From the NCBI GenBank assembly GCA_022822375.1, contig JAJEBU010000051.1:1-46018 (forward strand): a stretch of 46,018 bases of DNA. The letters are read 5' to 3'. The DNA comes from Dehalococcoidia bacterium (lineage in GTDB: Bacteria; Chloroflexota; Dehalococcoidia; Bin125). The translations under genes were made by a program, and so were the position numbers. The notes below the pieces were generated by a model that had not been told where the DNA came from, did no database searches, and saw nothing but the letters and a program-made list of their open reading frames with translations. Shown here in pieces: positions 86 to 33,949 of this stretch (within the stretch, counting starts at the first letter, position 1; each line of letters opens with the position of its first letter).

Positions 86-1501
86 ATGTCAGAGCTTCGC
101 TGGGACCCGCCGGCCGGCGGCAGCGCCAACGTCGGAGAGCCGCAACGGGGCGGATCGAGCGGCGGATCCGGCGGCGCGAGCCGATGGACCATCGGCTTGC
201 TCATCTTCGTGATGATCGGCGCCGCCTTCGCGCTGGGCATCGGCGTGATGCGGATCGTGGACGCGTCGGACGGCTATCCGGCATCGCTCCGCAGCTCACG
301 AGATCTCAGCCCGCCAACCGCGGCGCCATCCGTGGTCGCACCGTCCAATGACGACCAACAACAGGCCGCCACGACGCCAGGGCGCGAGTCGCGCTTCGCG
401 ATCCTCGATGAGATCGTCGAGATTCTGGACGAGGACTTCGTCGAGCCGGACAAGTTCGCATCGATTGACACACGCGAGGCCGCCATCAGGGGCATCATCG
501 AGGCATTGGAGGACGAGCACACGGTCTTCATCGACGCTGAGCGCTACCGGCTCGCGTCGGAGGACATCGGCGGATCGTTCGAAGGCATCGGGGCGACCGT
601 GAACATCGTCGATGAGGCGATCGTGATCGTGCGGCCGTTCCGCAACTCGCCGGCGGAGCAGTCCGGGATTCGCGCGGGAGATGTGATCCTCGAGGTCGAT
701 GGCGAGTCGACATCCGGCTGGAGCTTGCAGCAGGCCGTGGCCGTGATTCGCGGGCCGCGCGGGACCGACGTCGCACTGCTCGTCCGCCATGCGGACGGCG
801 AGGAAGAGCTGGTTGTGGTCACACGCGATCGGATCGTGGTGCCCAGCGTGGAGTCGTTGCCGATCACGGACCGCTCGGGCAATCCGGTCGCAGACATTGG
901 CTACATCCTGATTCAGCAGTTCACGGAGGACACTCGCACAGAGCTGCTGGAACTGCTTGACGGCGCGCGCAACGCGGGCTTGGAACAGCTCATTGTCGAC
1001 TTGCGCAACAATCCCGGCGGCTTGCTCAGCGCCACAGTCGAGACAACCGGGGAGTTCGTGGATGAGGAGATCATCCTGCGCCAGATTGACCGTATGGGCG
1101 AGGAAGAGATCTTCCGCGACCGTTCGGGCGGGGCCGGCGTCGACCTGCAACTGGTCGTGCTGATCAACGAGCACTCGGCCTCGGGCTCGGAAGTGATGGC
1201 GGCGGCGCTGCGCGATCACGGCCGCGCCGTCCTGATCGGCGTCACCACGACCGGCAAGGGCACCGTCAACGTGCCGCGCCGGTTGTCCGACGGCAGCGTG
1301 CTCTACGTCAGCATCGCGCGCTATCTGACGCCGAACGGCCAGCAGGTCGAGGGTGTCGGGATCACGCCCGACATTGAGATTGCGATTCCCGACACCGGCT
1401 TTGAGGCCGGCCAGGACATCCAGCTGTTCGTCGCGATTGAGTATCTGCGCGGCGAGTATGATCCGTCCGCCGCGACGGAAGAGGAAGGCGATGATTCATG
1501 A
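86..1501 (+). CDS. S41 family C-terminal processing peptidase (Ctp)
   Basis: A 471-residue membrane-anchored serine protease of the tail-specific/CtpA family, which cleaves proteins near their C-termini in the cell envelope. A Gly/Ser-rich cytoplasmic N-terminus is followed by one transmembrane segment (about residues 34-58), a Gln/Ser/Thr linker, a PDZ domain (about 160-240, with GIGATV and GIRAGDVILEVDG) and the S41 catalytic domain. The motif SASGSE at 364-369 holds the likely nucleophile Ser366, and TTGKGT holds the likely general base Lys391. Their 25-residue spacing is that of the Ser/Lys dyad in E. coli Prc. The ATG at 86 follows a purine-rich GAGGGGAAGG. The stop overlaps the start of the downstream sulfurtransferase (ATGA), so the two are probably translated together. 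The family call is secure; the substrate is unknown. Confidence 0.93.
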   Translation: MSELRWDPPAGGSANVGEPQRGGSSGGSGGASRWTIGLLIFVMIGAAFALGIGVMRIVDASDGYPASLRSSRDLSPPTAAPSVVAPSNDDQQQAATTPGRESRFAILDEIVEILDEDFVEPDKFASIDTREAAIRGIIEALEDEHTVFIDAERYRLASEDIGGSFEGIGATVNIVDEAIVIVRPFRNSPAEQSGIRAGDVILEVDGESTSGWSLQQAVAVIRGPRGTDVALLVRHADGEEELVVVTRDRIVVPSVESLPITDRSGNPVADIGYILIQQFTEDTRTELLELLDGARNAGLEQLIVDLRNNPGGLLSATVETTGEFVDEEIILRQIDRMGEEEIFRDRSGGAGVDLQLVVLINEHSASGSEVMAAALRDHGRAVLIGVTTTGKGTVNVPRRLSDGSVLYVSIARYLTPNGQQVEGVGITPDIEIAIPDTGFEAGQDIQLFVAIEYLRGEYDPSAATEEEGDDS

Positions 1502-2349
1502 CGAGTCAATCCGACGGTTGGGCGCGTCCCGAGCTAATCTGCGAGACCGATTGGCTGGCCGAACACATTGACGACCCGGATGTGGTCGTGCTCGACTGCG
1601 ATCTGATCGATGCGTATCTGCGCCTGCACATCCCTGGGGCGGTCTGGTCGTTGTCGCGCTATTGGAAGACCGATCCTCGCGACGATTCGCAGATCTACGG
1701 CATGTCCGATCCGGAACAGTGGGCGCGCTTGGTCGGCCGGCTCGGCATTACGCCAGACACGACCGTCGTCGGTTACGACGGATCGGGTTCGCTCTACGCC
1801 GCGCGGACGTGGTGGACGTTCGACCGTTTCGGCCACACCAACTTCAAGATTCTCGACGGCGGACTGGACAAGTGGTACGCCGAGGGCCGCTCGCTCTCGC
1901 GCGAGAACTTCCGTCCGCAGGCGGTCGAGTATCCGACGCCGTCAGCACCGCACGACGACTCGATCTGCCGGATTGACGAGATTCCCGAAGCGATCGCTGA
2001 CGACAACCATGTCTTCTGGGACGTGCGCTCGGACGGCGAGTGGACCGGCGCCAACAAGCGCGGCACGCAGCGCGGCGGCCGCATTCCTGGCGCGGTGCAT
2101 CTGGAGTGGCTGCACACGCTGGACAGCCCGGTGCGCACGCTGAAGCCGGCCTCGGAGCTGCGCCAAATGCTGGGTGATCTGGGTATCACGCCCGAGAAGA
2201 CGGTGACCACCTATTGACAGGGCGGCATCCGTGCGGCGCACGGATACTGGCTCCTGCAACTGCTCGGCTACAACAACAGCCGCAACTACGACGCGTCCTG
2301 GCACGAGTACGGCAACGCGCTCGACCAGCCGATTGAGACGGAAGACTAG
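1498..2349 (+). CDS. two-domain rhodanese (thiosulfate/3-mercaptopyruvate sulfurtransferase), probable selenoprotein with Sec at codon 240
   Basis: Sulfurtransferase of tandem-rhodanese type. The N-terminal non-catalytic domain (about residues 15-135) carries IPGAVWSL, VVGYDGSG and ILDGGLDKW. The catalytic domain (about 155-275) carries VFWDVRSDGEW, GRIPGAVHLEW, then TTY-TGA-QGGIRAAHGYW and NYDASWHEYGN. In this family the residue after the TTY-like strand, just before the QGG(I/V)RAAH loop, is the catalytic Cys. Here its codon is TGA (2215-2217). The same frame runs on for 43 residues to TAG at 2347-2349, giving 283 residues, the usual family length. Read as stopping at TGA, the protein would lack its active site and last helices. 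A SECIS-like hairpin follows the TGA. Selenocysteine is my preferred reading; a sequencing error at one base or a nonsense mutation are the alternatives. The ATG overlaps the ctp stop. Confidence 0.8.
2218..2256 (+). promoter_or_regulatory. candidate bacterial SECIS element after the in-frame TGA
   Basis: Directly after the TGA at 2215-2217 the RNA can fold an upper stem of 8 perfect base pairs (2227-2234, ATCCGTGC, with 2238-2245, GCACGGAT) closed by a 3-nt loop GGC. A short lower stem, CAGG (2218-2221) with CCTG (2253-2256), lies across an internal loop. There are 17 nt between the TGA and the apical loop, and the loop begins with G. From established knowledge, bacterial SECIS elements lie inside the reading frame with the loop roughly 16-37 nt after UGA and a G among the first two loop bases. 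The same bases also encode the conserved GIRAAHGY segment, so part of the pairing could be coincidence. Confidence 0.6.
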
Positions 2350-3548
2350 CCGTCGAGCAGGCCGCCGAGCGCGGCGTCGACTTCGGCGAGCGGGGCGAAG
2401 GCTTCGAATCGGGCGGTGACGACTCCATCGGCGTCCACGACGAACGTCCACTCGTCGGTGTGCAACCCCCATTCCTCCAGAATGGGGGTCTCGATCGGTT
2501 CCTCACCGAGCCTGACCTGCTCGGGGTTCTCGTAGAGGTCGACGTGCACGTAGTTGGCCGCGTCCCCGTAGATCTGGCGGACTTCGGAGAGCACTTCGGC
2601 CTGCGGGCCGCAGAATGCGTTGGTGCAGAAGCCGGGCGAGGCGAACACGACGACGAACGGCTTGTCGTCGGCGACCGCGTCGGCGATGGACACGAGATAG
2701 AGGCCGGGGTCAGGAGTCTCACCAGTCGATAGGTCAACAATGTTGGCGACATCGGTCAGCGTCCGGCTGTCTGACGCCGGCGCGGATGCTCCGACAGACG
2801 GCGCGGACGTGGCTTCGGGGACGTCGAGGGCGATGCCGAGATCGGTGAAGCCGTCGCCGGCGGGCACACGCAGAATCAGGTTCCAGCGGCCGGCGTGGGT
2901 GAAGTCGATCGAGGTGACGTGAAAGCCGCGGACGCCATCGGGGAAGCGCGCGAATCGGGCGACGACTTCATGCGCGCTGCCCTCCGCAGCATCAGGCGCG
3001 ACGCTGACCGCGATCGCAGGGAACTCGACCAGGCCTTGCGGCCCCTCGATCACGACCGAGATGCGGTGCTCGCCCGGCGAAATGTCGGGAGTTCCCAGTG
3101 CCAGTGTGTAGTCGTTGTCAAAGACGTAGACCGGATATCCGCCGTCTCGCAACAGCTGCAAGCGCGGGCTCAGGGCGTCGTAGTCCGCTGGTTCGACGAT
3201 CGGGATCGAGCCGCCGGGACTTGATGCTTGCGAGGCGTGCTGGTCGGACGCGCCAGAGTCGGCGGTGGACTGTGGTTGATCATCTGCGACCTGCGCCTGT
3301 TCTTGCGCCTGCCCATCTTCTTGCGATTGCGATGGTGTTGCCTGCGATTGTGGCTGAGCGCTCGACTCGTTCGAGGAACGGTCCTGCGCATCTGTGGACT
3401 GCTCTGATTGCCGCTGTTCCGTCTGCTGCGGCTGATCCGCCGTGGTCTCCTGCTGGGCCCCGTCGGAGCTGTCGGAGCCGCTGGAGCAGGCGGCGAGCGC
3501 CAGCATCGCGGCGGTTACGGCGGCGATGGTGATCAATGATCGGATCAT
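2346..3548 (-). CDS. secreted lipoprotein with C-terminal thioredoxin-like domain
   Basis: A 400-residue predicted lipoprotein. A short signal peptide ends in a lipobox (LALAAC). About 90 Ser/Gln/Asp-rich residues of low complexity follow as a tether. Next comes a beta-rich module with PVYVFDNDYTLALGTPDI and PGEHRISVVIEG. The C-terminal thioredoxin-like domain has FVVVFASPGFCTNAFC with two cysteines four residues apart (CTNAFC), then VHVDLYENPEQ and TFVVDADGVVTARFE. The spacing differs from the classical CxxC, so a redox, metal-binding or purely structural role is possible. The ATG at 3548 follows GAGGACCACC; an upstream TTG in frame is less likely. Its stop shares CTAG with the convergent rhodanese. 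It lies 39 nt after the DipZ-like lipoprotein gene and is probably co-transcribed with it. Confidence 0.8.
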   Translation of the reverse strand: MIRSLITIAAVTAAMLALAACSSGSDSSDGAQQETTADQPQQTEQRQSEQSTDAQDRSSNESSAQPQSQATPSQSQEDGQAQEQAQVADDQPQSTADSGASDQHASQASSPGGSIPIVEPADYDALSPRLQLLRDGGYPVYVFDNDYTLALGTPDISPGEHRISVVIEGPQGLVEFPAIAVSVAPDAAEGSAHEVVARFARFPDGVRGFHVTSIDFTHAGRWNLILRVPAGDGFTDLGIALDVPEATSAPSVGASAPASDSRTLTDVANIVDLSTGETPDPGLYLVSIADAVADDKPFVVVFASPGFCTNAFCGPQAEVLSEVRQIYGDAANYVHVDLYENPEQVRLGEEPIETPILEEWGLHTDEWTFVVDADGVVTARFEAFAPLAEVDAALGGLLDG

Positions 3549-3587
3549 GGTGGTCCTCAATGGTCGGGCGTTGGTTCTGTGCTGAGA

Positions 3588-5180
3588 TTACTCGCCGCCG
3601 ACGTAGGCGCCGAAGGTGTAGGCAAAGACGCGGAACTGGTCCGAGTTCGAGCGCAGGATCAGCTCGCCCTCGCCGAACTCAGGCAGGAAGATCAGCCGGT
3701 AGAGATCGTTCTCGGTGACGCGGATGAACGAGCGCCCGTCGGCGTCCCATTTGATGTGTTCCGCGGCGATCGAGCGGTCCAGCCAGTCGCCGTCCCACTG
3801 CACGTAGACGTCGTAGGGGTCGCCGTCCTCTGCGACGGTCAGGACGACGTTGGCCGTTCTCCCGCGCACGAGCAGCGCCATGTAGTCCTCGAGATTCTTC
3901 GTTTCGCGCGCATGCACGATGGCCTGGGTTTCGGTCGTCCACAGACCCTCGAGGTACCAGAGGTTGTGCTCGCGGTCGTCGGTGTCAATGTCGCGATAGT
4001 GCGTGGGGATGCCGGGCCCAGCCAGGAAGTAAGTCTCCTGACCGGCGTAAGGGCCGCCTGAGCCGGTGTTGCGGCTCCAACCGGCGTAGAGCTCGCGAGT
4101 CTGACGCGGATTCCCGCTCTCGCGCGTGGGGACCGCCGCGTTCACCCCGAATGGGACGTCGGAGAGGTCCTTCCCGACCGCTTCCAGCGCTTCGCGAATC
4201 TCCTGCTCGGTCTCCTCATAGTGGCCCTCGCCGAAGTGGGAGTAGCGGATGCCCATCGGCGACCCGTCGTCGGTCGGACCGATCAGATACTTGGCGGGCC
4301 AGTAGCGGTTGCGAAATGCGCGCCAAGTGCGGTAGTCGTTGTCGATCGGCACGTCGTACTGGATGCCGTGCTCGGCGATGGCTGCGCTGATGTTGGCGGG
4401 CAGCTTCTCGAACTCGAACTCGGGCGTGTGCACGCCGAGGATGACCAGCCCATGATCGCGGTACTTCGCGTCCCACGCGGTCAGGAAGGGCAGCGTGCGA
4501 ACGCAGTTGATGCAGGTGTAGGTCCAGAAGTCGATCAGTACGACATTGCCCTTGGCCAGTTCGAGCGCGATCGAGGTCTCCTCGCCGTTCAGCCAACCGT
4601 TCAGTCCGGTCAGCTCTGGGGCGGTGGCTTGAGCGAGGATCTCCTCCGCTCGCAGGGTCAACGCATCTCGTTCCGGCGGCTCTGAGGGCTCGGAGTCTTG
4701 CGTCTGCTGAATCTGCTGCGCTGCCTGCTCGGACTGCTGTGGTGCCTCCTGCTGCGACTGCTGGGCGGGTTGGTCTTGCGCGGCTGACTGCTGATCAGTC
4801 GACTCTGTCGTCTGCTGTTGGGATTCCGTCTGTTCGGATGGCTGGGAGTCAGCCGCTGGCGAGTCGTCCTGCTGCTGATCGCTGGAGGTTGTCTGTGCGG
4901 CTGCGGTCGGCTCATCGCCGTCGTCATCCGACTGACGCTGTTGTGCCGCAGGTGGGTCGTCGGCCTGTTGCTGCTGCTCCGCGCCGTCCGAGCGGATCTC
5001 GACGGCAGCTTGTTGCCGCTGTTCCTCTTGCTCCTCTTGCTCCTCTTGCGCCGAGGTCTGTGGTTGTTGTTGCTGCTGCTGCTGTTGCTGCTGTGGGTCG
5101 TCGTCCGAAGCGCAGGCGAGCAGGAACGCGCTGAGCAGGAAGAGGACGGCGGCGAGGGAAATGGATCTGAGTGTCATCAT
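3588..5180 (-). CDS. thioredoxin-fold lipoprotein, soluble part of DipZ type
   Basis: A 530-residue envelope protein. The signal peptide ends in a lipobox (FLLAC), followed by DDD, a run of ten Gln, and about 140 residues rich in Gln, Glu, Ser and Asp. The thioredoxin-like domain begins near residue 195 and contains VVLIDFWTYTCINCVRTLPF, with the CINC redox pair, then GLVILGVHTPEFEFEK and the cis-Pro region YWPAKYLI. After it comes the DipZ C-terminal carbohydrate-binding-like domain (TETYFLAG-type strand, LWYLEGLW, IKWDADGRSFIRVTENDLY, VFAYTFGAYVGG). Mycobacterial DipZ has these two domains fused to a CcdA membrane part, which is absent here and replaced by a lipid anchor. Likely role: extracytoplasmic thiol-disulfide exchange. 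ATG at 5180 or 5177; no strong ribosome binding site is visible. Confidence 0.85.
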   Translation of the reverse strand: MMTLRSISLAAVLFLLSAFLLACASDDDPQQQQQQQQQQPQTSAQEEQEEQEEQRQQAAVEIRSDGAEQQQQADDPPAAQQRQSDDDGDEPTAAAQTTSSDQQQDDSPAADSQPSEQTESQQQTTESTDQQSAAQDQPAQQSQQEAPQQSEQAAQQIQQTQDSEPSEPPERDALTLRAEEILAQATAPELTGLNGWLNGEETSIALELAKGNVVLIDFWTYTCINCVRTLPFLTAWDAKYRDHGLVILGVHTPEFEFEKLPANISAAIAEHGIQYDVPIDNDYRTWRAFRNRYWPAKYLIGPTDDGSPMGIRYSHFGEGHYEETEQEIREALEAVGKDLSDVPFGVNAAVPTRESGNPRQTRELYAGWSRNTGSGGPYAGQETYFLAGPGIPTHYRDIDTDDREHNLWYLEGLWTTETQAIVHARETKNLEDYMALLVRGRTANVVLTVAEDGDPYDVYVQWDGDWLDRSIAAEHIKWDADGRSFIRVTENDLYRLIFLPEFGEGELILRSNSDQFRVFAYTFGAYVGGE

Positions 5181-8749: not shown

Positions 8750-9247
8750 ATGGCCAAGCGCAAATCGAAACAGTCGTCGAACGGGCCGAACGGGTCGCAG
8801 CCCAACGACCGCACGGTCGCGTCCAATCGGCGTGCCCTGCGCAACTACGAGATCCTGCGTCGCTATGAGGCAGGACTGGCGCTGAGCGGATCGGAAATCA
8901 AAAGCATCCGTGCCGGTCGAGCGTCCATCGCCGAGGCCTACTGTCGGCCTCGCGCGGACGGTATGGCGCTGGTTGGGGCGCACATTGCGCGCTATGAGCC
9001 GTCGGGCGAGGCGAACCATGAACCCACGCGCGATCGGCGTCTGCTGCTCCACCGACGCGAGATCGCGCAGCTCGAACAGGCCTTCGAGCAGAAGGGTCAG
9101 ACGTTGGTGCCGCTGCGGCTCTATCTCACGCGCGGGCTGGCCAAGCTGGAAGTGGGCATCGGACGCTCGCGCCGGCAGTACGAGAAGCGCCAGCTGCTAG
9201 CGGAGCGCGACGTGAAGCGTCAGATCGAACGGGCGCTGAGAGGCTGA
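8750..9247 (+). CDS. smpB: SsrA-binding protein SmpB
   Basis: A 165-residue partner of tmRNA in ribosome rescue (trans-translation). The core begins near residue 24 (ASNRRALRNYEILRRYEAGL) and has the family signatures LSGSEIKSIRAGRASIAEAY, ARYEPSG, HEPTRDRRLLLHRREI, LVPLRLYLTRGLAKLEVGIG and a basic C-terminal tail (YEKRQLLAERDVKRQIERAL) that enters the mRNA channel. The Lys/Ser/Asn-rich N-terminal extension is variable in this family. ssrA lies 1.7 kb downstream on the same strand, separated by one opposite-strand gene. No clear Shine-Dalgarno sequence precedes the ATG. Confidence 0.96.
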   Translation: MAKRKSKQSSNGPNGSQPNDRTVASNRRALRNYEILRRYEAGLALSGSEIKSIRAGRASIAEAYCRPRADGMALVGAHIARYEPSGEANHEPTRDRRLLLHRREIAQLEQAFEQKGQTLVPLRLYLTRGLAKLEVGIGRSRRQYEKRQLLAERDVKRQIERALRG

Positions 9248-10985: not shown

Positions 10986-11342
10986 GGGGACGAAAGGGTT
11001 CGACAGCGGTTGACTGCGCATTGCTGCGTGCCGAGCTGGCGTAACTCGAAAACTGCGCCAACCTTCCTATACACGGCGAATCCAAGGAGTTTGCCCTCGC
11101 TGCCTAACCGCGGCGACGTCACCCTGAACTGAATCCGAACAGCGACGGGACTGGCGCCGACCAAACCGGATGCCCGCTGCGCGATGTCGGGAGCGCGGCG
11201 GAAAGACCACTCCGACTGACCTGTCCGTAACGGTAGGCCGACGCGCCGGCGTTCAGGGACACCGCAAGCGACGGACACGCACGTAGACGCACTGGGAAGC
11301 GGCCGTCTGGACGGGGAGTTCGATTCTCCCCCGTCTCCACCA
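10986..11342 (+). ncRNA. ssrA: transfer-messenger RNA (tmRNA), one-piece
   Basis: A 357-nt tmRNA for rescue of stalled ribosomes. The 5' end GGGGACG (10986-10992) pairs fully, with one G-U, with CGTCTCC near the 3' end (11332-11338), followed by A and an encoded CCA (11340-11342). The 5' GGGTTCGAC and the 3' T-arm GAGTTCGATTCTC are the usual tRNA-like elements. The tag frame ends at TAA (11105-11107) and reads back as ANLPIHGESKEFALAA if the resume codon is GCC at 11057; a start at GAA 11048 is also possible. The terminal ALAA is the standard protease degron. smpB lies upstream. Confidence 0.96.
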
Positions 11343-11388: not shown

Positions 11389-11497
11389 GTTGTGATGTCG
11401 CAGGTGGTTGAGAGAGGAAACGTACGAGTTGGAGAACGAATCGTTTGCATGACGTGAGGAGATGGATCGTCGTGTAGTAGGATTCACTGAACTCGGT

Positions 11498-11526
11498 TTG
11501 ACGACTCAGACCGGGCAACTGAGATT
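11498..11526 (+). promoter_or_regulatory. possible promoter of the peptide-transport locus
   Basis: TTGACG (11498-11503), a 17-nt spacer and GAGATT (11521-11526), 31 nt before the ATG of the first binding-protein gene. The -35 is good and the -10 poor. The gap from the ssrA terminator to the gene holds nothing else I can name. Confidence 0.3.
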
Positions 11527-11557
11527 GCGGCGCGAGCCGCCCGTCCCGGAGGACACG

Positions 11558-13600
11558 ATGAGCGAACGGAATTACTGGACTCGGATGCGCCGTCGACAGC
11601 TGTCACGCCGTGCGCTGCTGGGCGCATCGGCGCGTGCCGGCGTCGGCGCGGCCGGCCTGGCATTGGTCGGCTGTGGCGATGATGACGACGACGGCCAGCA
11701 GGCCGCCGCGCAGGTGCAGCAGCAAGCCCAGCAGCAACAGCAGGCGATGCAGCAGCAGCAGGCCGACCAACAGGCCATGCAGGCTGCAGATCAGGAAGAC
11801 CAGCAGGATCAGGCGGCTACCGCGACGGCGCAGCAAGCTTCGAGCGTGCCGGGCCCGGGCCAGGGCGGCGACTCGGTCGCGTCGTACTACGGCCTCAACT
11901 CGGGCGACCTGCCGACGCTGGACCCGTACGAGAACCTGACCTATCGCACGCAGACAGGTTCGGGCTACCACTACGCGAAGCTGATTCGCGAGGTCGAAGG
12001 CGGCCCCGGCGTGTCGCCGACCTACCACGGCGAGCAGACGCCCGACGCCTCGGAGCTGCCTGAGGTCGTGGACGAGACGACCTACGTCTTCAACATTCGC
12101 GATGACGTCTTCTGGCACGACGTTGAGCCGCTCAACGGTCGCCAGCTGACCATCGACGACATCATGTACACCTACGACCGCTTCCGCGAGGTCTCGCCGA
12201 ACGGCGCGAGCTGGGACAAGGTCGTGGCCTCGTTCGAGCCAGGTCAGGACAACGCGATCACGGCGAAGCTGCACCGGCCGCACGCGCCGTTCGTGATTCT
12301 CGCCTCCTCGTCGCAGCACCTGTACCTGATTCCGCCCGAGATTGTGGACGACGGCACGGTCGCCGAGCGACCCGTCGGCGCGGGTCCGTTCATCTTCGAG
12401 GAGTACGAGCCGGGCGTGGCGCTGCGCTGGCGTCACAACCCGAACTGGCACAACGGCTACAACGGCAACGGTGCGCCGTACCTCAACACGATCACGCGGA
12501 CGCTGAACGCGGACCCGAACGTGATCATCCAGGCCGTGGCCGACGGCAGCTTCGACTTCTCGCGGCTGTCCGCTTCGGTCTACGCGCAGATGGACGGCGC
12601 GCTGCCCGAAGAGTACGACCGCGACCGCGCCTTCGTGTTGACGCCGACGGCGACGCCGGGCGGCTTCTACTTCAACTTCTCGATTCCACCCTGGAACGAC
12701 GTGCGGATGCGTTTGGCGCTGTCCATGGCGCTCGACCGCGACGGCGTCCTGCAGGGCACCGACGACACCGGCCAGGGCGTCTGGCAGTCTGGTATCTCGC
12801 CGATGGCTCCGTACTGGCTCGACCCCAAGTCGGACGACTTCGGTCCGAACGCGAAGTACTTCCAGCTCAACCTGGCAGAGTCGCAGAAGCTGCTTGATGC
12901 GGCTGGGTACCCGGACGGGATTCAGGCCACGATCCACAACACGGCCGACTACGGCGCGACGGCGAACAACTTCTTCGCCGCGAACGTCGCATCGGTCGCT
13001 GAGGGCGGCTTCCAGTTCGAGATCTTCTCGAAGGAATACGCGGCCTACATCGCCTCGATCTTCCGCGGGAACTTCCCGGACTCGTGGGACGGCGAGTCGA
13101 GCCACCTGGCCATCGGGCCGTTCTACGGCGGCGCGACCGACCCCGAGGACCTCTTCGCCGCGGTCTACTCGCGCAACTCCGGCCGCCACAACTGGGGCTC
13201 GTCGAGCCGCACGCCGGCCAACCGCGACGCCGTGCTGGCGCTGGACACCGGCGGCAACGCCGAGGCCTGGTCGCCGGTCGACTCGGACACCTTCGGCCAC
13301 CCGAACTCCGCGATCGGCGGCGGTCCGGAAGAGGACGAAGAGCTGCACCGGTTGATGGACGAGCAGCGCGGCATCCTCGACTTCGAGGAGCGCGTGCAGA
13401 AGATCCACGACATCCAGCGCTACATGGCGGAAAAGATGTACACGGTGCCCTACACTGCGGCGCCCGAGACGTACGTCTACAACCCATGGGTGCGTCACAA
13501 CGACTTCGACAAGGTCCACCCGAAGATCAGCTACGGCACGGGCAATGCGTTCGAGCCGTTCCTCTGGATCGACGAGGACCTCAAGGACGAGCTGACCTAG
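11558..13600 (+). CDS. ABC transporter substrate-binding protein, family 5 (peptide/nickel type), copy 1
   Basis: A 680-residue Tat-exported lipoprotein. The N-terminus has the twin-arginine motif (QLSRRALLGASARAG) and a lipobox (LALVGC). It is followed by GDDDDDG and about 60 residues dominated by Gln and Ala, then the solute-binding fold: YYGLNSGDLPTLDPYENLTY, VFWHDVEPLNGRQLTIDDI, AERPVGAGPFIFEEYEPG, MRLALSMALDRDGVL and a C-terminal VPYTAAPETYVYNPW. The start is the ATG at 11558, which has GGAGG 6 nt upstream and matches the paralogue's N-terminus; the frame is open further upstream to 11462 but that extension looks non-coding. It delivers a peptide-like or other organic substrate to the two permeases downstream. 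It is very similar to the binding protein at 16307-18358. Confidence 0.93.
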   Translation: MSERNYWTRMRRRQLSRRALLGASARAGVGAAGLALVGCGDDDDDGQQAAAQVQQQAQQQQQAMQQQQADQQAMQAADQEDQQDQAATATAQQASSVPGPGQGGDSVASYYGLNSGDLPTLDPYENLTYRTQTGSGYHYAKLIREVEGGPGVSPTYHGEQTPDASELPEVVDETTYVFNIRDDVFWHDVEPLNGRQLTIDDIMYTYDRFREVSPNGASWDKVVASFEPGQDNAITAKLHRPHAPFVILASSSQHLYLIPPEIVDDGTVAERPVGAGPFIFEEYEPGVALRWRHNPNWHNGYNGNGAPYLNTITRTLNADPNVIIQAVADGSFDFSRLSASVYAQMDGALPEEYDRDRAFVLTPTATPGGFYFNFSIPPWNDVRMRLALSMALDRDGVLQGTDDTGQGVWQSGISPMAPYWLDPKSDDFGPNAKYFQLNLAESQKLLDAAGYPDGIQATIHNTADYGATANNFFAANVASVAEGGFQFEIFSKEYAAYIASIFRGNFPDSWDGESSHLAIGPFYGGATDPEDLFAAVYSRNSGRHNWGSSSRTPANRDAVLALDTGGNAEAWSPVDSDTFGHPNSAIGGGPEEDEELHRLMDEQRGILDFEERVQKIHDIQRYMAEKMYTVPYTAAPETYVYNPWVRHNDFDKVHPKISYGTGNAFEPFLWIDEDLKDELT

Positions 13601-14708: not shown

Positions 14709-16064
14709 GTGTCCGAATCCACCACACTCGACGACGTTGTCGTCATTGGCCGTCGCGAAGGCATCGCCGAACGTGCGCGGGACCTGATCGAGACGCTGAT
14801 CAACCGCGCGCTGGAGAGCCCGATCGGCTTTATCACCGCGCTCGTCGGGCTGATCGTGCTCGGCTCGTTCGGCTTCCTTGTGGCGGTCGTGATCATGCCC
14901 TATTGGATGTACCGGCGGCGCAAGTATCTGGGTGCCTTCGGTGCCGTGATCCTGCTCGCCTGCGTGCTCGTGGCCTTCTTCGCGCCCCTCATTCAGACGA
15001 CCGATACCGGCGGCAACGCCAACATCGTGCCCTATGCCAAGGCGACCTTCTCGGACCGCTTCATCGGCCCGACCTGGGACCACGTGCTGGGCACGGACAA
15101 TCTCGGCCGCGACTACACCACGCGGATCGTCTACGGCGCCGAGGTGACGGTGCTGGTCGGTGTGGGGACCGTGCTGCTGACCGCCTTCCTGGCGACTGGG
15201 ATCGGGCTCGTCTCGGGCTACTTCGCCGGGGCCGGGCTGACCTGGAGCATGCGCGCGCCACCTCAGGTGCTCGGACTGCCTGGGCCGCTGTGGTGGTTCG
15301 CCGCGCTGCCCTTCTCGCTGTTCTTCCTCGCCATTCAGCTCGCGATCCGCTTAGCCGACCTGGCCACGCTGGGGCTGCTCCATGACCAATGGGAGCGGCT
15401 GTCTGAGATAGCTGGGCTCGGCTTGCCCACGAAGCCCGGGCCGTTGCCCGACATCGACCTGGTGATCCAGCGCGTCGTTGACGTCTGGAACGCCTTCCCT
15501 GCAATCTTCCTGATCCTCGGCATCCTGGCGGTGCTCGGCTCCGGCGGCGACGGCTTCTTCGGGCTCGGCCGCGGCCCCGACATCGGCCCCCAGGCAGACT
15601 TCGGCGACGAATGGCTGTGGGAAGTCTTCCCCCGCACCACCGTCGTGATCGTCACGCTCGCTGTCGTGCTCGCGGCCGGCAACTCACGGATCGTCAGAGG
15701 CGCCGTGCTCTCGACCCGCGCCACGCAGTACGTCGAAGCGGCGCGCGCGCTGGGCGCCAACAACGCGCGGATCATGCTCGCTCACATCATCCCCAACGTG
15801 ATGGCGACGATCATCATCCTCTCCTCGATCAACCTCGGCGTCGCCGTACTGGCCGAGGCGGCCATCTCGTTCCTCGGCTTCGGCATTCCCGAGCCGTTCC
15901 CAACCTGGGGCCGCGACGCCGGTGGTCTGGCGCTGACCTACGGCGCTCAGTACTGGTGGATGGCCGTCTTCCCGGGCCTGGCGATTGCGATTGCCGTGTT
16001 CGGCTTCAACATGATGGGCGACGCGCTGCGGGACATTCTCGACCCGCGCTTGCGCGGCACCTAA
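14709..16064 (+). CDS. ABC transporter permease, DppC/OppC type, enlarged
   Basis: A 451-residue permease, about 150 residues longer than usual DppC. GTG start 33 nt after the dppB-type stop. The N-terminal 90 residues add a cytoplasmic segment and an extra hydrophobic helix (FITALVGLIVLGSFGFLVAV) before the usual first helix (FGAVILLACVLVAFFAPLIQ). HVLGTDNLGRDYTTRIVYGA is the classic DppC motif. A further insertion of roughly 70 residues with an additional hydrophobic stretch (WWFAALPFSLFFLAIQLAIR) follows before DVWNAFPAIFLILGILAVLG. The EAA loop is YVEAARALGANNARIMLAHI, followed by ISFLGFGIPEPFPTWG. Family assignment is secure; the role of the extra segments is unknown. Confidence 0.92.
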   Translation: MSESTTLDDVVVIGRREGIAERARDLIETLINRALESPIGFITALVGLIVLGSFGFLVAVVIMPYWMYRRRKYLGAFGAVILLACVLVAFFAPLIQTTDTGGNANIVPYAKATFSDRFIGPTWDHVLGTDNLGRDYTTRIVYGAEVTVLVGVGTVLLTAFLATGIGLVSGYFAGAGLTWSMRAPPQVLGLPGPLWWFAALPFSLFFLAIQLAIRLADLATLGLLHDQWERLSEIAGLGLPTKPGPLPDIDLVIQRVVDVWNAFPAIFLILGILAVLGSGGDGFFGLGRGPDIGPQADFGDEWLWEVFPRTTVVIVTLAVVLAAGNSRIVRGAVLSTRATQYVEAARALGANNARIMLAHIIPNVMATIIILSSINLGVAVLAEAAISFLGFGIPEPFPTWGRDAGGLALTYGAQYWWMAVFPGLAIAIAVFGFNMMGDALRDILDPRLRGT

Positions 16065-16166
16065 GCTCAGAAGCTGGCCGAAAGCTGGTCGCAGGCGGCC
16101 AATCCACGCCGCGATCGCCACGCCGCATCACACGGCCGGTCGATTTGATCGGCAGACGCGAACAGT

Positions 16167-16195
16167 ACGCGCGGGCGAAACACACCCGCGCGTTT
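16167..16195 (+). terminator. terminator after the permease genes
   Basis: ACGCGCGGG (16167-16175) and CCCGCGCGT (16185-16193) form a 9-bp perfect stem with a 9-nt loop, ending in TTTCT. It lies about 100 nt after the second permease and 110 nt before the second binding-protein gene, which suggests that the latter has its own promoter. Confidence 0.65.
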
Positions 16196-16306
16196 CTGTA
16201 TCATCTGCGTTACATTGTCGCGAAGGCTCGAAACTCGGGTTGCCCGAGCGGAGCGCTTCGCACTCAGCAATGGACGGGCCGATCCCGTCCCCAGAGGAGG
16301 CACAGC

Positions 16307-18358
16307 ATGAGCGAACGGAACTATTGGCAACGAATGCGGCGTCGACAGCTCTCGCGGCGCGCGCTTTTGGGAGCGTCCGCTCGTGCCGGTGTCGGCGCGG
16401 CCGGCCTGGCATTGGTCGGCTGCGGCGACGATGACGATGACGGCCAGCAGGCCGCCGCGCAGGTGCAGCAGCAGGACCAGCAGCAACAGCAGGCGATGCA
16501 GCAGCAGGCGCAACAGCAACAGGCACAGCAGGCTGCCCAGCAGGCCGCGCAGCAAGAGGGTGACGACCAGGACGCGGCGATGCAGCAGCAGGCCGTCTCG
16601 GCGCTGCCCGCACCGGGCGCCGGCGGCACCGGCGTCTCGCCCTACGTCGGCCTCAGCTCGGGCGACCCGCCCACGCTCGACCCGTATGAGAACCTGACCT
16701 ACCGCACGCAGATCGGCTCGGCCTATCACTACGCCAAGCTGATCCGCGAGGTTGAGGGTGCACCCGGCATCTCGCCGATCAACACCGCCGAGATCTCTGA
16801 GGACGCCTCGCGGCTGCCCGAGGTGATTGACGCCACGACCTACGTGTTCAACCTGCGTGAGGATGTCCACTGGCACGACGTCGAGCCGCTCAACGGCCGG
16901 CAGCTCGTGATGGACGACATCATGTACACCTACGACCGCTTCCGCGAGGTGTCGCCGAACGCGGCCGGCTGGGACAAGGTCGTCGCCTCGTTCGAAGGCG
17001 GCGAGGACAACGCGATCACGGTCGGTCTGCACCGTCCGCACGCGCCCTTCCTGACGCTCGCCTCGTCCTCGCAGCACCTCTGGTTCATCCCGCCCGAGAT
17101 CGTCGACGACGGCACGGTCGCCTCGCGCCCGGTCGGCGCGGGTCCGTGGATCTTCGAGGAGTTTGAGCCGGGCGTGGCGCTGCGCTGGCGCCGCAACCCG
17201 AACTGGCACATCGGCAACGACACGGGCGGCGCGCCCTTCCAGGAGACCATCACCAAGACGATGCAGAATGATCCGAACGTGATCATTCAGGCGATCGCCG
17301 ACGGCAACCTCGATATGTCGCTGCTCTCGGCGGCCGTCTACCGCCAGATGGAAGACGCGATTCCGGACACTTACGACCTCGACCGCTACTTCGTCTTCAC
17401 GCCCAACACGGTGCCGGGCGGCTTCTACTTCAACTTCTCGATTCCGCCCTGGAACGACGTGCGGATGCGCTTGGCGCTGTCGATGGCGATGGACCGCGAC
17501 GGCGTCCTGTCGGCCACCGACGACACGGGTCAAGGCGGCTGGCAGTCGGGTATCTCGCAGCTGCCGCCGTTCTGGCTCGACCCCAAGTCGGACGAGTTCG
17601 GTCCCAACTCGCAGTACTTCCATCTGAACCGGGCCGAGGCGCAGAAGTTGATGGACGCGGCCGGCTATCCGGACGGTGTGCAGGCGCTGGTCCACAACAC
17701 GGCCGACTACGGCGCGGCGACGAACAACCTCTACGCCGCCTGCATCGCGACCGTGGCCGAGTCAGGCTTTCAGATGGAGATCTTCTCCAAGGAGTACGCG
17801 GCCTACATCGCCTCGATCTTCCGCGGCAACTTCCCCGATCAGTGGGACGGCGAGTCGAGCCACTTGGCGATCGGCCCCTTCTACGGCGGCGCGACCGACC
17901 CGGAGGACCTCTTCGCGGCGGTCTACTCGCGCACATCGGGTCGGCACAACTGGGGTTCGTCGAGCCGGACGCCCGACAACCGCGACGGTGTGCTGGCGCT
18001 GGACACCGGCGGCAACGCCGAGGGCTGGTCGCCGGTCGACGCCGACACGTTCGGCCATCCGAACTCGGCGATCGGCGGCGGTCCCGAGCTGGACGAGACG
18101 CTGCACCAGATGTTCGACGACCAGCGAGCGCTGCTCGACCTCGAAGAGCGGATCGAAGCGATCAACGACATCCAGCGCTACCTGGCCGAGCAGATGTACT
18201 ACGTGCCCTACGTCGCGACGCCGGGCGTGTACGCCTTCAACCCCTGGGTCAAGCAGAACGACTTCGAGAACATCCACCCCAAGACCACCTACGGCTGGGG
18301 TGGCGCGTTCGAGCCGTACGTCTGGATGGACCAGGCGCTCAAGGACGAGCTCACCTAG
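16307..18358 (+). CDS. ABC transporter substrate-binding protein, family 5, copy 2
   Basis: A 683-residue Tat lipoprotein, close paralogue of the protein at 11558-13600 (roughly three quarters identical by eye; signal peptide and lipobox nearly identical). Order: twin-arginine signal QLSRRALLGASARAG, lipobox LALVGC, GDDDDDG, about 60 residues of Gln/Ala repeats, then the binding fold (YVGLSSGDPPTLDPYENLTY, VHWHDVEPLNGRQLVMDDI, ASRPVGAGPWIFEEFEPG, MRLALSMAMDRDGVL). Differences cluster in short patches such as 'AAVYRQMEDAIPDTYDLDRYF' shortened here to AAVYRQMEDAIPDTY. The ATG at 16307 has GAGGAGG upstream; the frame is open back to 15611 but overlaps the permease gene and is not used. Probably a duplicate with altered ligand preference serving the same permeases. 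Confidence 0.93.
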   Translation: MSERNYWQRMRRRQLSRRALLGASARAGVGAAGLALVGCGDDDDDGQQAAAQVQQQDQQQQQAMQQQAQQQQAQQAAQQAAQQEGDDQDAAMQQQAVSALPAPGAGGTGVSPYVGLSSGDPPTLDPYENLTYRTQIGSAYHYAKLIREVEGAPGISPINTAEISEDASRLPEVIDATTYVFNLREDVHWHDVEPLNGRQLVMDDIMYTYDRFREVSPNAAGWDKVVASFEGGEDNAITVGLHRPHAPFLTLASSSQHLWFIPPEIVDDGTVASRPVGAGPWIFEEFEPGVALRWRRNPNWHIGNDTGGAPFQETITKTMQNDPNVIIQAIADGNLDMSLLSAAVYRQMEDAIPDTYDLDRYFVFTPNTVPGGFYFNFSIPPWNDVRMRLALSMAMDRDGVLSATDDTGQGGWQSGISQLPPFWLDPKSDEFGPNSQYFHLNRAEAQKLMDAAGYPDGVQALVHNTADYGAATNNLYAACIATVAESGFQMEIFSKEYAAYIASIFRGNFPDQWDGESSHLAIGPFYGGATDPEDLFAAVYSRTSGRHNWGSSSRTPDNRDGVLALDTGGNAEGWSPVDADTFGHPNSAIGGGPELDETLHQMFDDQRALLDLEERIEAINDIQRYLAEQMYYVPYVATPGVYAFNPWVKQNDFENIHPKTTYGWGGAFEPYVWMDQALKDELT

Positions 18359-31984: not shown

Positions 31985-33949
31985 ATGTCACCGCAACGAT
32001 CGCGTCGCCAGACTCCGCTCCGCCGTACCGCCATGTCCCGTCGAACGCTGCTCGCTGCCTCGGCCCGTGCCGGCGTCGGCGCGACGGGACTGCTGTTGGT
32101 CGGCTGCTCGGACGACGATGCAGAGCAGGAGGCGCAGGCCCAAGAGCAGCAGGCGGCGCAACAGGATGTTCAGGACGAGTCTGCTCAGCAGGGTCAGCAA
32201 ACTCAACAGGCTGGCCAGGCCATGCAGCAGCAGTCCGCTGGGCAAGCGCAGTCCGAGCAGCAGCAGTCACAGGAGGCTGAACCGCCGGCGGAGCCGAGTG
32301 GACCGTCGCGCGGCGGGATCATCCGCGCCTGGCTTGCGCTCGAACGGATCGATTCCTGGGATCCGCATCGCTCGCGGGATCGTCGGATGCAGGCGCTGCA
32401 CAGTTTGATGTATCAACGGCTGATTCAGCCGGCCTCGAACCACACGGGCGAGTTGACGTCCGACCTGGCCAGCCTGCCTGAGACTCCTGACGCGACGAGC
32501 TACATCTTTGCGCTGGACGCGAATGCCCGCTTCTGGGATCGGGAGCCGACCAACGGTCGCGCCATTTCGTCGCACGACATCGTTTGGAACTTCAAGCGTC
32601 AGCGCGACGCGTTGGACGCCGCCGGCTCGGTTGATCCATCGTTCTTCCGGCGCTCGGCCTACGAGCGCACGGAAAGCGCGGAGGCGCCGGACGACGGCAC
32701 CCTGCTGCTGACGACCGCGTCCCCCGACGCCGCCTATCTGGGTTCCGTGCATGCCTCGCCGTTCGCCTGGATCACCAGTCCCGAGGCAGCTGGACTGTAC
32801 GGCGACGACTGGCGCGACGATCCGTCCGACGTGATGCGCAACAGCGGAACGGGAGCGTTCGCGCCGCACAGCGGCGATGGATTCGAAGTCACGCTGGCTC
32901 GGTCGGATCACTGGCCGCGCGCCGAGCTCGGCTGGGCTGACGGCATCGTGTTCAGTTCGGGCAACGCAGACACACTGGCGAGCATCTACCAGACGGGCGG
33001 GTTGGACATCGCCGACTTCCCGCTGTCGAATGAGTCGATCGAAGCGCTGCGCGATGAGTATCCCGAGCATGATGTGTTCGAGCGTCCGCTTGGGGCGCCG
33101 GTTGAGCTGGTCACGCCGATGGCGCTGGGGGACGATGCGCCGGACGGTGCGCCGCTGAACGATCCGCGAATCGTCCGAGCGATCGCGCTTGCGGTGGATC
33201 GTCAGACGCTGATCGAACGCCTCTACGACGGGCACGGACGCGTCAGCGGCCCGCTGCCTTGGTACCTGGACGGCTGGAGCCTGACGGCGTCGCAGCTTGA
33301 GGCCTTGCCCGGCACCAGTTCGGATCGCGCAGGCGCGATGTCGGAGATATCAGGGTTGGTTGACGCCGCTGGCGGCGGCGCCGCGATTCCGCTCGTGGCG
33401 GCTGATTTGTTTGAGGGATTCTTCCCTGGCGCCGGGGAAGCGGTGCGTTCGATGATCGCTGACGCGACCGGTCTGGAAGTCGAGCTCGAGTTCCGCGACT
33501 GGGCGGCGGCGGTCGATCAGTTGCGATCGGGCGAGCGATTCTGCCTGCTGGGCTGGGGTCCGGCGCCGACTCAGGCCGATCCGACCGACGACTGGCGCCG
33601 CACGCTGCATTCGGCCGGCCCCGATCGCTGGAGCGGCGGCGGGAACCCTGACTTGGACGCGCTGATCGAGCAGATGGGCATGACCTTCGATCTTGAAACG
33701 CGTCGCGGGATCGCCCAGGACGTGCAGATTCAGCTGCTGAGCGGTGAGGCGGTCCAATGGCGCGTGCCGCTGGCGGGTGGCGTGCAGTTGGGCCTGCATC
33801 AGCCGTGGCTGCGGCCCGATCCCAGATTGTTCGAGTACGCCTGGTCGACGCAATACCTGAGCAACAGCTGGGTCGACGTGTCGCGCGAGGGATATCCGCT
33901 GGAGCGCGAGTTGCCGGTGCGTGAGGCCGAGTCGGACGGCTCGGAATAG
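31985..33949 (+). CDS. ABC transporter substrate-binding protein, family 5, divergent orphan
   Basis: A 654-residue Tat lipoprotein. The signal has MSRRTLLAASARAG and a lipobox (LLLVGC), followed by SDDD and about 60 Gln/Glu/Ala-rich residues, the same layout as the two binding proteins at 11.6-18.4 kb. The mature fold has GGIIRAWLALERIDSWDPHR, RFWDREPTNGRAISSHDIVW and IVRAIALAVDRQTLIERLYD. Similarity to the other two is confined to fold-level motifs, so it is an older paralogue. No permease or ATPase gene is near; it may share transporters encoded elsewhere. An internal ATG at 32033 (MSRRTLL) is an alternative start that would still keep the Tat signal. Confidence 0.9.
   Translation: MSPQRSRRQTPLRRTAMSRRTLLAASARAGVGATGLLLVGCSDDDAEQEAQAQEQQAAQQDVQDESAQQGQQTQQAGQAMQQQSAGQAQSEQQQSQEAEPPAEPSGPSRGGIIRAWLALERIDSWDPHRSRDRRMQALHSLMYQRLIQPASNHTGELTSDLASLPETPDATSYIFALDANARFWDREPTNGRAISSHDIVWNFKRQRDALDAAGSVDPSFFRRSAYERTESAEAPDDGTLLLTTASPDAAYLGSVHASPFAWITSPEAAGLYGDDWRDDPSDVMRNSGTGAFAPHSGDGFEVTLARSDHWPRAELGWADGIVFSSGNADTLASIYQTGGLDIADFPLSNESIEALRDEYPEHDVFERPLGAPVELVTPMALGDDAPDGAPLNDPRIVRAIALAVDRQTLIERLYDGHGRVSGPLPWYLDGWSLTASQLEALPGTSSDRAGAMSEISGLVDAAGGGAAIPLVAADLFEGFFPGAGEAVRSMIADATGLEVELEFRDWAAAVDQLRSGERFCLLGWGPAPTQADPTDDWRRTLHSAGPDRWSGGGNPDLDALIEQMGMTFDLETRRGIAQDVQIQLLSGEAVQWRVPLAGGVQLGLHQPWLRPDPRLFEYAWSTQYLSNSWVDVSREGYPLERELPVREAESDGSE

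Follow-up and report, generated by a model that had tools for sequence, protein, structure and literature searches.

Rhodanese-related sulfurtransferases of the COG2897 type were first recognised as a selenoprotein family in 2005, from three Sargasso Sea sequences with a predicted SECIS (PMC1088965), and the family was met again in GOS in 2008 (PMC2398784). Two reviews list it since then, each time as predicted: that of 2022 gives a COG2897/SseA rhodanese selenoprotein, MQG53192.1 (PMC9312934), and that of 2026 designates the COG2897 rhodanese selenoprotein 'form 4', with the motif UxxG (PMC13188914). The initial annotation of the gene studied here was thus right that rhodanese-like selenoproteins had been reported in marine metagenome surveys (PMC1088965, PMC2398784). 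A rhodanese with selenocysteine (Sec) is a kind already described in 2005, and the present gene, although real and well supported, is not a new kind.

In this work, we analyzed a window of 46,018 nucleotides (the whole stretch of DNA under study), which is contig C8 of a 2.7-Mb Dehalococcoidia assembly, 95.6% complete. Judged by its domains, its motif, its SECIS and the published descriptions, the rhodanese gene that it carries fits the known COG2897/SseA selenoprotein family. What is added here, from sequence comparison, is that predicted Sec is widespread in this enzyme across the class, that it is linked to Cys by at least seven well-supported switches, and that a sister pair exists in which the SECIS has decayed.

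The rhodanese gene and its surroundings

The features under consideration are collected in Table 1. The rhodanese frame runs from ATG 1498 to TAG 2347-2349 and contains a sole interior stop, the TGA at 2215-2217 (codon 240); translating this TGA as Sec gives 283 residues with U240. Pfam Rhodanese (PF00581) matches two stretches of this protein (8e-34), and phmmer aligns residue 240 opposite the catalytic Cys of the Thermus rhodanese 1UAR and of Mycobacterium tuberculosis CysA2 (3HWI). The open reading frames and this alignment bear out the initial annotation, which had placed the TGA exactly at the rhodanese catalytic Cys and the frame as open onward to TAG 2347.

Table 1. Features of the rhodanese locus, in window positions
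Feature	Positions	Strand	Basis or remark
S41 (CtpA-like) peptidase with PDZ domain, directly upstream	86..1501	+	4-nt overlap with rhodanese
Tandem rhodanese-domain sulfurtransferase, 283 aa, predicted Sec at residue 240	1498..2349	+	ORF, Pfam, phmmer, AF2
In-frame TGA, predicted to encode Sec240, in place of the catalytic Cys codon of the Y-U-QGGIR active-site loop	2215..2217	+	120 aligned homologues
Bacterial SECIS-like hairpin, AUCCGUGC-GGC-GCACGGAU	2227..2245	+	Model fit, synonymous freezing, covariation
Putative lipoprotein gene, convergent, no Pfam match	2346..3560	-	Conserved neighbour in genus

The predicted Sec lies in the active-site loop of the second domain, where the UxxG motif is present as U240-Q-G-G. 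An AlphaFold2 model of the 283-residue protein has a mean pLDDT of 92.3, and its nearest fold in the PDB is 1UAR (TM 0.88); this and the other near folds, 1E0C and 3AAX, are tandem-domain thiosulfate sulfurtransferases. Around the loop, G243 and R245 are invariant in the homologue alignment; no resolving Cys adjoins Sec240 in the translated protein. With the 3-mercaptopyruvate sulfurtransferase equivalog NF008557 the protein scores 109.9 bits, below the curated cut-off of 250, and it was therefore not filed as an MST proper. The whole window was scanned for in-frame TGA codons that are flanked on either side by a GC3 signal and accompanied by a SECIS-like hairpin, which returned four sites, 2215-2217 among them; of the other three, all elsewhere in the window, two coincide with the ends of ordinary genes listed as ORFs.

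The rhodanese ATG overlaps the stop of the S41 peptidase gene, itself a TGA, by 4 nt. The order S41-rhodanese-lipoprotein is kept in the genus and in one other genome of the family and not beyond, so it says little about rhodanese function. Elsewhere in the window, several lipoprotein-like genes encode long stretches rich in Gln/Ala immediately past the N-terminal signal region (2346-5180 on the minus strand; 11462-13600, 15611-18358 and 31985-33949 on the plus strand), and positions 8750-9247 and 10986-11342 hold, by reading of the sequence, an SmpB-like ORF near a tmRNA gene with the tag GESKEFALAA.

Decoding of the in-frame TGA

UGA 2215-2217 is almost certainly decoded as selenocysteine, given that the codon is conserved, that the machinery genes are present and that the RNA hairpin is conserved. 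The organism's own SelA, SelB, SelC and SelD would decode this UGA as Sec, the hairpin just downstream would direct the insertion, and the product would be a 283-residue two-domain rhodanese of the COG2897/SseA type with a catalytic Sec240 in U-Q-G-G-I-R.

A search of 393 genomes of the class found a match at 1e-50 or better in 162 of them. The relatives named are metagenome-assembled Dehalococcoidia/Chloroflexota, and the genomes compared are probably mostly MAGs. In 120 aligned homologues, the codon at the Sec240 column is TGA in 77, TGC or TGT in 43, and never anything else. Exactly one TGA, always at the same codon, is present in 14 of 14 copies read from the genus (our own included) and in 5 of 5 further copies from the family, and TGA at this column recurs in dozens more genomes across the class. 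Relatives sharing the codon, which the initial annotation had proposed to look for, thus exist at the level of genus, family and class, and the sequence after the TGA is intact in the close ones. For the confirmation of the base in separate reads, which it had also proposed, these independent genomes serve as a substitute. Beyond the class TGA copies are rare: they were seen in two genomes from other parts of the phylum (L166, L167) and, outside the phylum, in a MAG of the SAR324 cluster (L080), whose rhodanese has an in-frame TGA in place of the catalytic Cys codon (F-U-QGGYRSSH) and is without the GGC-loop hairpin. Divergent rhodanese genes with TGA, with the loops UQGGIRSSV and UQTGQRSSV and a different, possibly bulged hairpin, were also seen in L158 and at G028:C52:27622-29698, where two neighbouring ones (L119/L120) lie on one strand. 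No copy of the Sec rhodanese is visible in G012 (88% complete), and a fragment on its contig C157 was discarded as a candidate, as it encodes the CGGGIAAS paralogue.

The published model of the bacterial SECIS calls for a loop of 3-9 nt with a G in its first two positions, a spacing of 16-37 nt and an energy of at most -7.5 (PMC13188914). The hairpin at 2227-2245 satisfies every one of these constraints, with 8 perfect base pairs, a GGC loop (2235-2237) placed 17 nt past the UGA, and -11.0 kcal/mol. The SECIS test was passed by 71 of the 77 TGA copies versus 7 of the 43 Cys copies, the compared sequences being related rather than independent, so that the statistics overstate certainty. The six TGA copies that fail this simple contiguous-stem test include L082, with a broken pair, and several very divergent ones. 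At amino-acid-invariant codons of four- or sixfold degeneracy, the 14 genus copies vary synonymously at 114 of 117 codons outside the hairpin and at 0 of 4 inside it. One stem pair joins an Ile wobble position to the second position of a Gly codon: in distinct TGA rows it is C-G in 54, G-C in 11 and A-U in 3 (68 of 75 paired), whereas it is paired in 7 of 43 Cys rows. Its changes need seven steps on the tree, and some of them also alter the protein, from Gly to Ala or Gly to Val. Over all eight stem pairs the paired fraction is 0.85 for TGA versus 0.49 for Cys. Such compensatory changes point to selection on the RNA and are otherwise hard to explain.

The initial annotation had suggested a search of the same genome for the Sec machinery, and all four genes were found: selA (C145, 515.8 bits), selB (C149, above the curated cut-off), tRNA-Sec, or selC (C24:6442-6535, 66.4 bits versus a gathering threshold of 47; called tRNA-SeC with anticodon tca, that is UCA, by ARAGORN), and selD (C110, 350 bits). 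The selD gene (G000:C110:7468-8409, L051/L162) has an in-frame TGA within NCGG-U-GSKFG and is therefore probably a selenoprotein gene as well. The selB match sits in a 984-codon open frame, but the SelB itself is of the ordinary kind and the frame simply happens to be open ahead of it. In genomes with a completeness of 90% or more, selA exceeds the cut-off in 47 of 48 with TGA versus 18 of 25 with Cys (Fisher p 0.002, relatedness ignored). G356, a TGA genome without selA over the cut-off, has a partial match. No selA match was obtained in G141, G152 and G162, which are Cys genomes of one genus, G162 being a single contig; in G028 (TGA, 81% complete) neither selA nor a strong tRNA-Sec was found.

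TGA is the normal stop in most bacteria, and the codon might accordingly be read as a nonsense mutation, an assembly error or a real stop that leaves a 239-residue truncated protein or a pseudogene. This is very improbable. The truncated product would be without the catalytic residue, the same TGA recurs in independent genomes across the class, the hairpin is conserved and the genome has the Sec machinery; moreover, the sequence past the TGA is conserved and intact, with a low pN/pS in most comparisons (range 0.07-0.69 over 43 codons, a noisy measure taken as supporting evidence only). Nonsense mutation, sequencing error and pseudogene were rejected on the strength of conservation in independent genomes, and the argument of the initial annotation against a random nonsense hit stands, the same codon being TGA in independent genomes with conserved sequence downstream. 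Genome-wide reassignment of TGA, for example to Trp or Gly, or suppressor read-through would likewise keep the frame open, and is more improbable still. Homologues carry Cys at this position, never Trp or Gly, and the neighbouring S41 gene terminates at TGA, two observations on which reassignment was rejected; the full Sec machinery, including a tRNA-Sec with a UCA anticodon, and the specific downstream hairpin also speak for Sec.

Proposed function and Sec/Cys switching

With decoding as Sec, the protein is probably a Sec version of the CQGGIR-type sulfurtransferase, a putative enzyme carrying sulfane sulfur on Sec240. The selenolate would accept sulfane sulfur from, for example, thiosulfate, mercaptopyruvate or a persulfide, and the resulting Sec-Se-S(H) intermediate would hand it on to an acceptor thiol, for instance that of thioredoxin. 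With selenium, the intermediate would be expected to form and to be reductively discharged faster, and irreversible oxidation to be resisted. The initial annotation had likewise conjectured a perselenide/persulfide-carrying enzyme with altered kinetics. The Sec enzyme is probably specialised and not the only sulfurtransferase of its genome, because two further ordinary Cys paralogues are encoded there, with the loops CRIGERSSH (C66) and CGGGIAASN (C101).

Two other roles are compatible with Sec incorporation, and we hold both to be unlikely. The protein could be mainly a selenium carrier, holding Se as a diselenide or perselenide and supplying it to SelD rather than transferring sulfur. According to a review (PMC9369223, citing Ogasawara 2001 and Melino 2003), ordinary Cys rhodaneses take up selenium 1:1 in the form of a perselenide and are proposed to feed selenophosphate synthesis, which makes selenium delivery a real, if less likely, alternative. 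Against such a role, none of the genome's own selA, selB, selC and selD is on the contig of the rhodanese, and many selA-bearing relatives have the Cys version, so that Sec at this position is not needed for Sec synthesis. The enzyme could also be an oxidoreductase or a peroxide scavenger, characterised selenoproteins being mostly redox enzymes. Sulfurtransferases are also known to form sulfenates that thioredoxin can reduce (PMC3276061). This second role appears slightly less probable than the first. Against it, the rhodanese loop and the catalytic surroundings are kept, G243 and R245 included, and Sec has no resolving Cys beside it.

How Sec and Cys versions relate was examined on a maximum-likelihood tree of 119 proteins, from which locus L058 is absent. 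The tree needs 11 Sec/Cys changes, and branches with strong support impose at least seven of these. One sister pair joins the Sec copy L109 of genome G075 to the Cys copy L154 of genome G119, with 232 of 280 aligned positions identical; L109 has TGA and the intact hairpin GCGUGC-GUC-GCACGC, whereas L154 has TGC and GCGUGC-AUC-CCAUAC, in which full pairing is lost. As read from these sequences, the pair displays SECIS decay in the Cys copy. Tentatively, and with less than even confidence, we suggest that Sec may be the old or default state of the sulfurtransferase of this class, the Cys versions having arisen by repeated loss with SECIS decay, some of them in genomes that keep selA. On this reading, the enzyme may also connect the metabolism of sulfane sulfur with that of selenium. 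In genome G348 a Sec version (L102) occurs together with a Cys version (L155), possibly as a natural backup pair.

Comparison with known sulfurtransferases

In the natural Sec/Cys switches of this family, the RNA signal is present or decayed in step with the codon, so that close Sec/Cys pairs make it testable why selenium is used in sulfurtransferases. A pipeline that takes UGA solely as a stop would cut the gene at the TGA and drop the catalytic residue, and this widespread predicted selenoenzyme of the class is for that reason probably often mis-annotated.

Among enzymes with Cys, Thermus thermophilus 1UAR and M. tuberculosis CysA2/CysA3 (3HWI, 3AAX) share with the present protein the two rhodanese domains, the fold (TM 0.88) and the catalytic position, but theirs is a Cys in a different loop, and identity is about 33-36%. 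The Cys-type CQGGIR sulfurtransferases of the class (for example G051, G107 and G162) are closer, with the same loop and about 42-43% identity; unlike the present gene, they have a TGC or TGT codon and are without the conserved SECIS hairpin. Further rhodanese selenoproteins (COG0607 forms 1-3 and TsoB) also have a rhodanese domain with Sec, and form 2 shares UxxG, but they are listed separately, under different motifs (UxxS, CxU, UxxxxU) or families (PMC13188914, PMC9312934). The COG2897/SseA rhodanese selenoprotein, with whose published representatives our gene was compared by description and from which no functional difference is known, is the system that it resembles: COG2897-type, with Sec in place of Cys, UxxG (here UQGG) and a predicted SECIS directly past the UGA.
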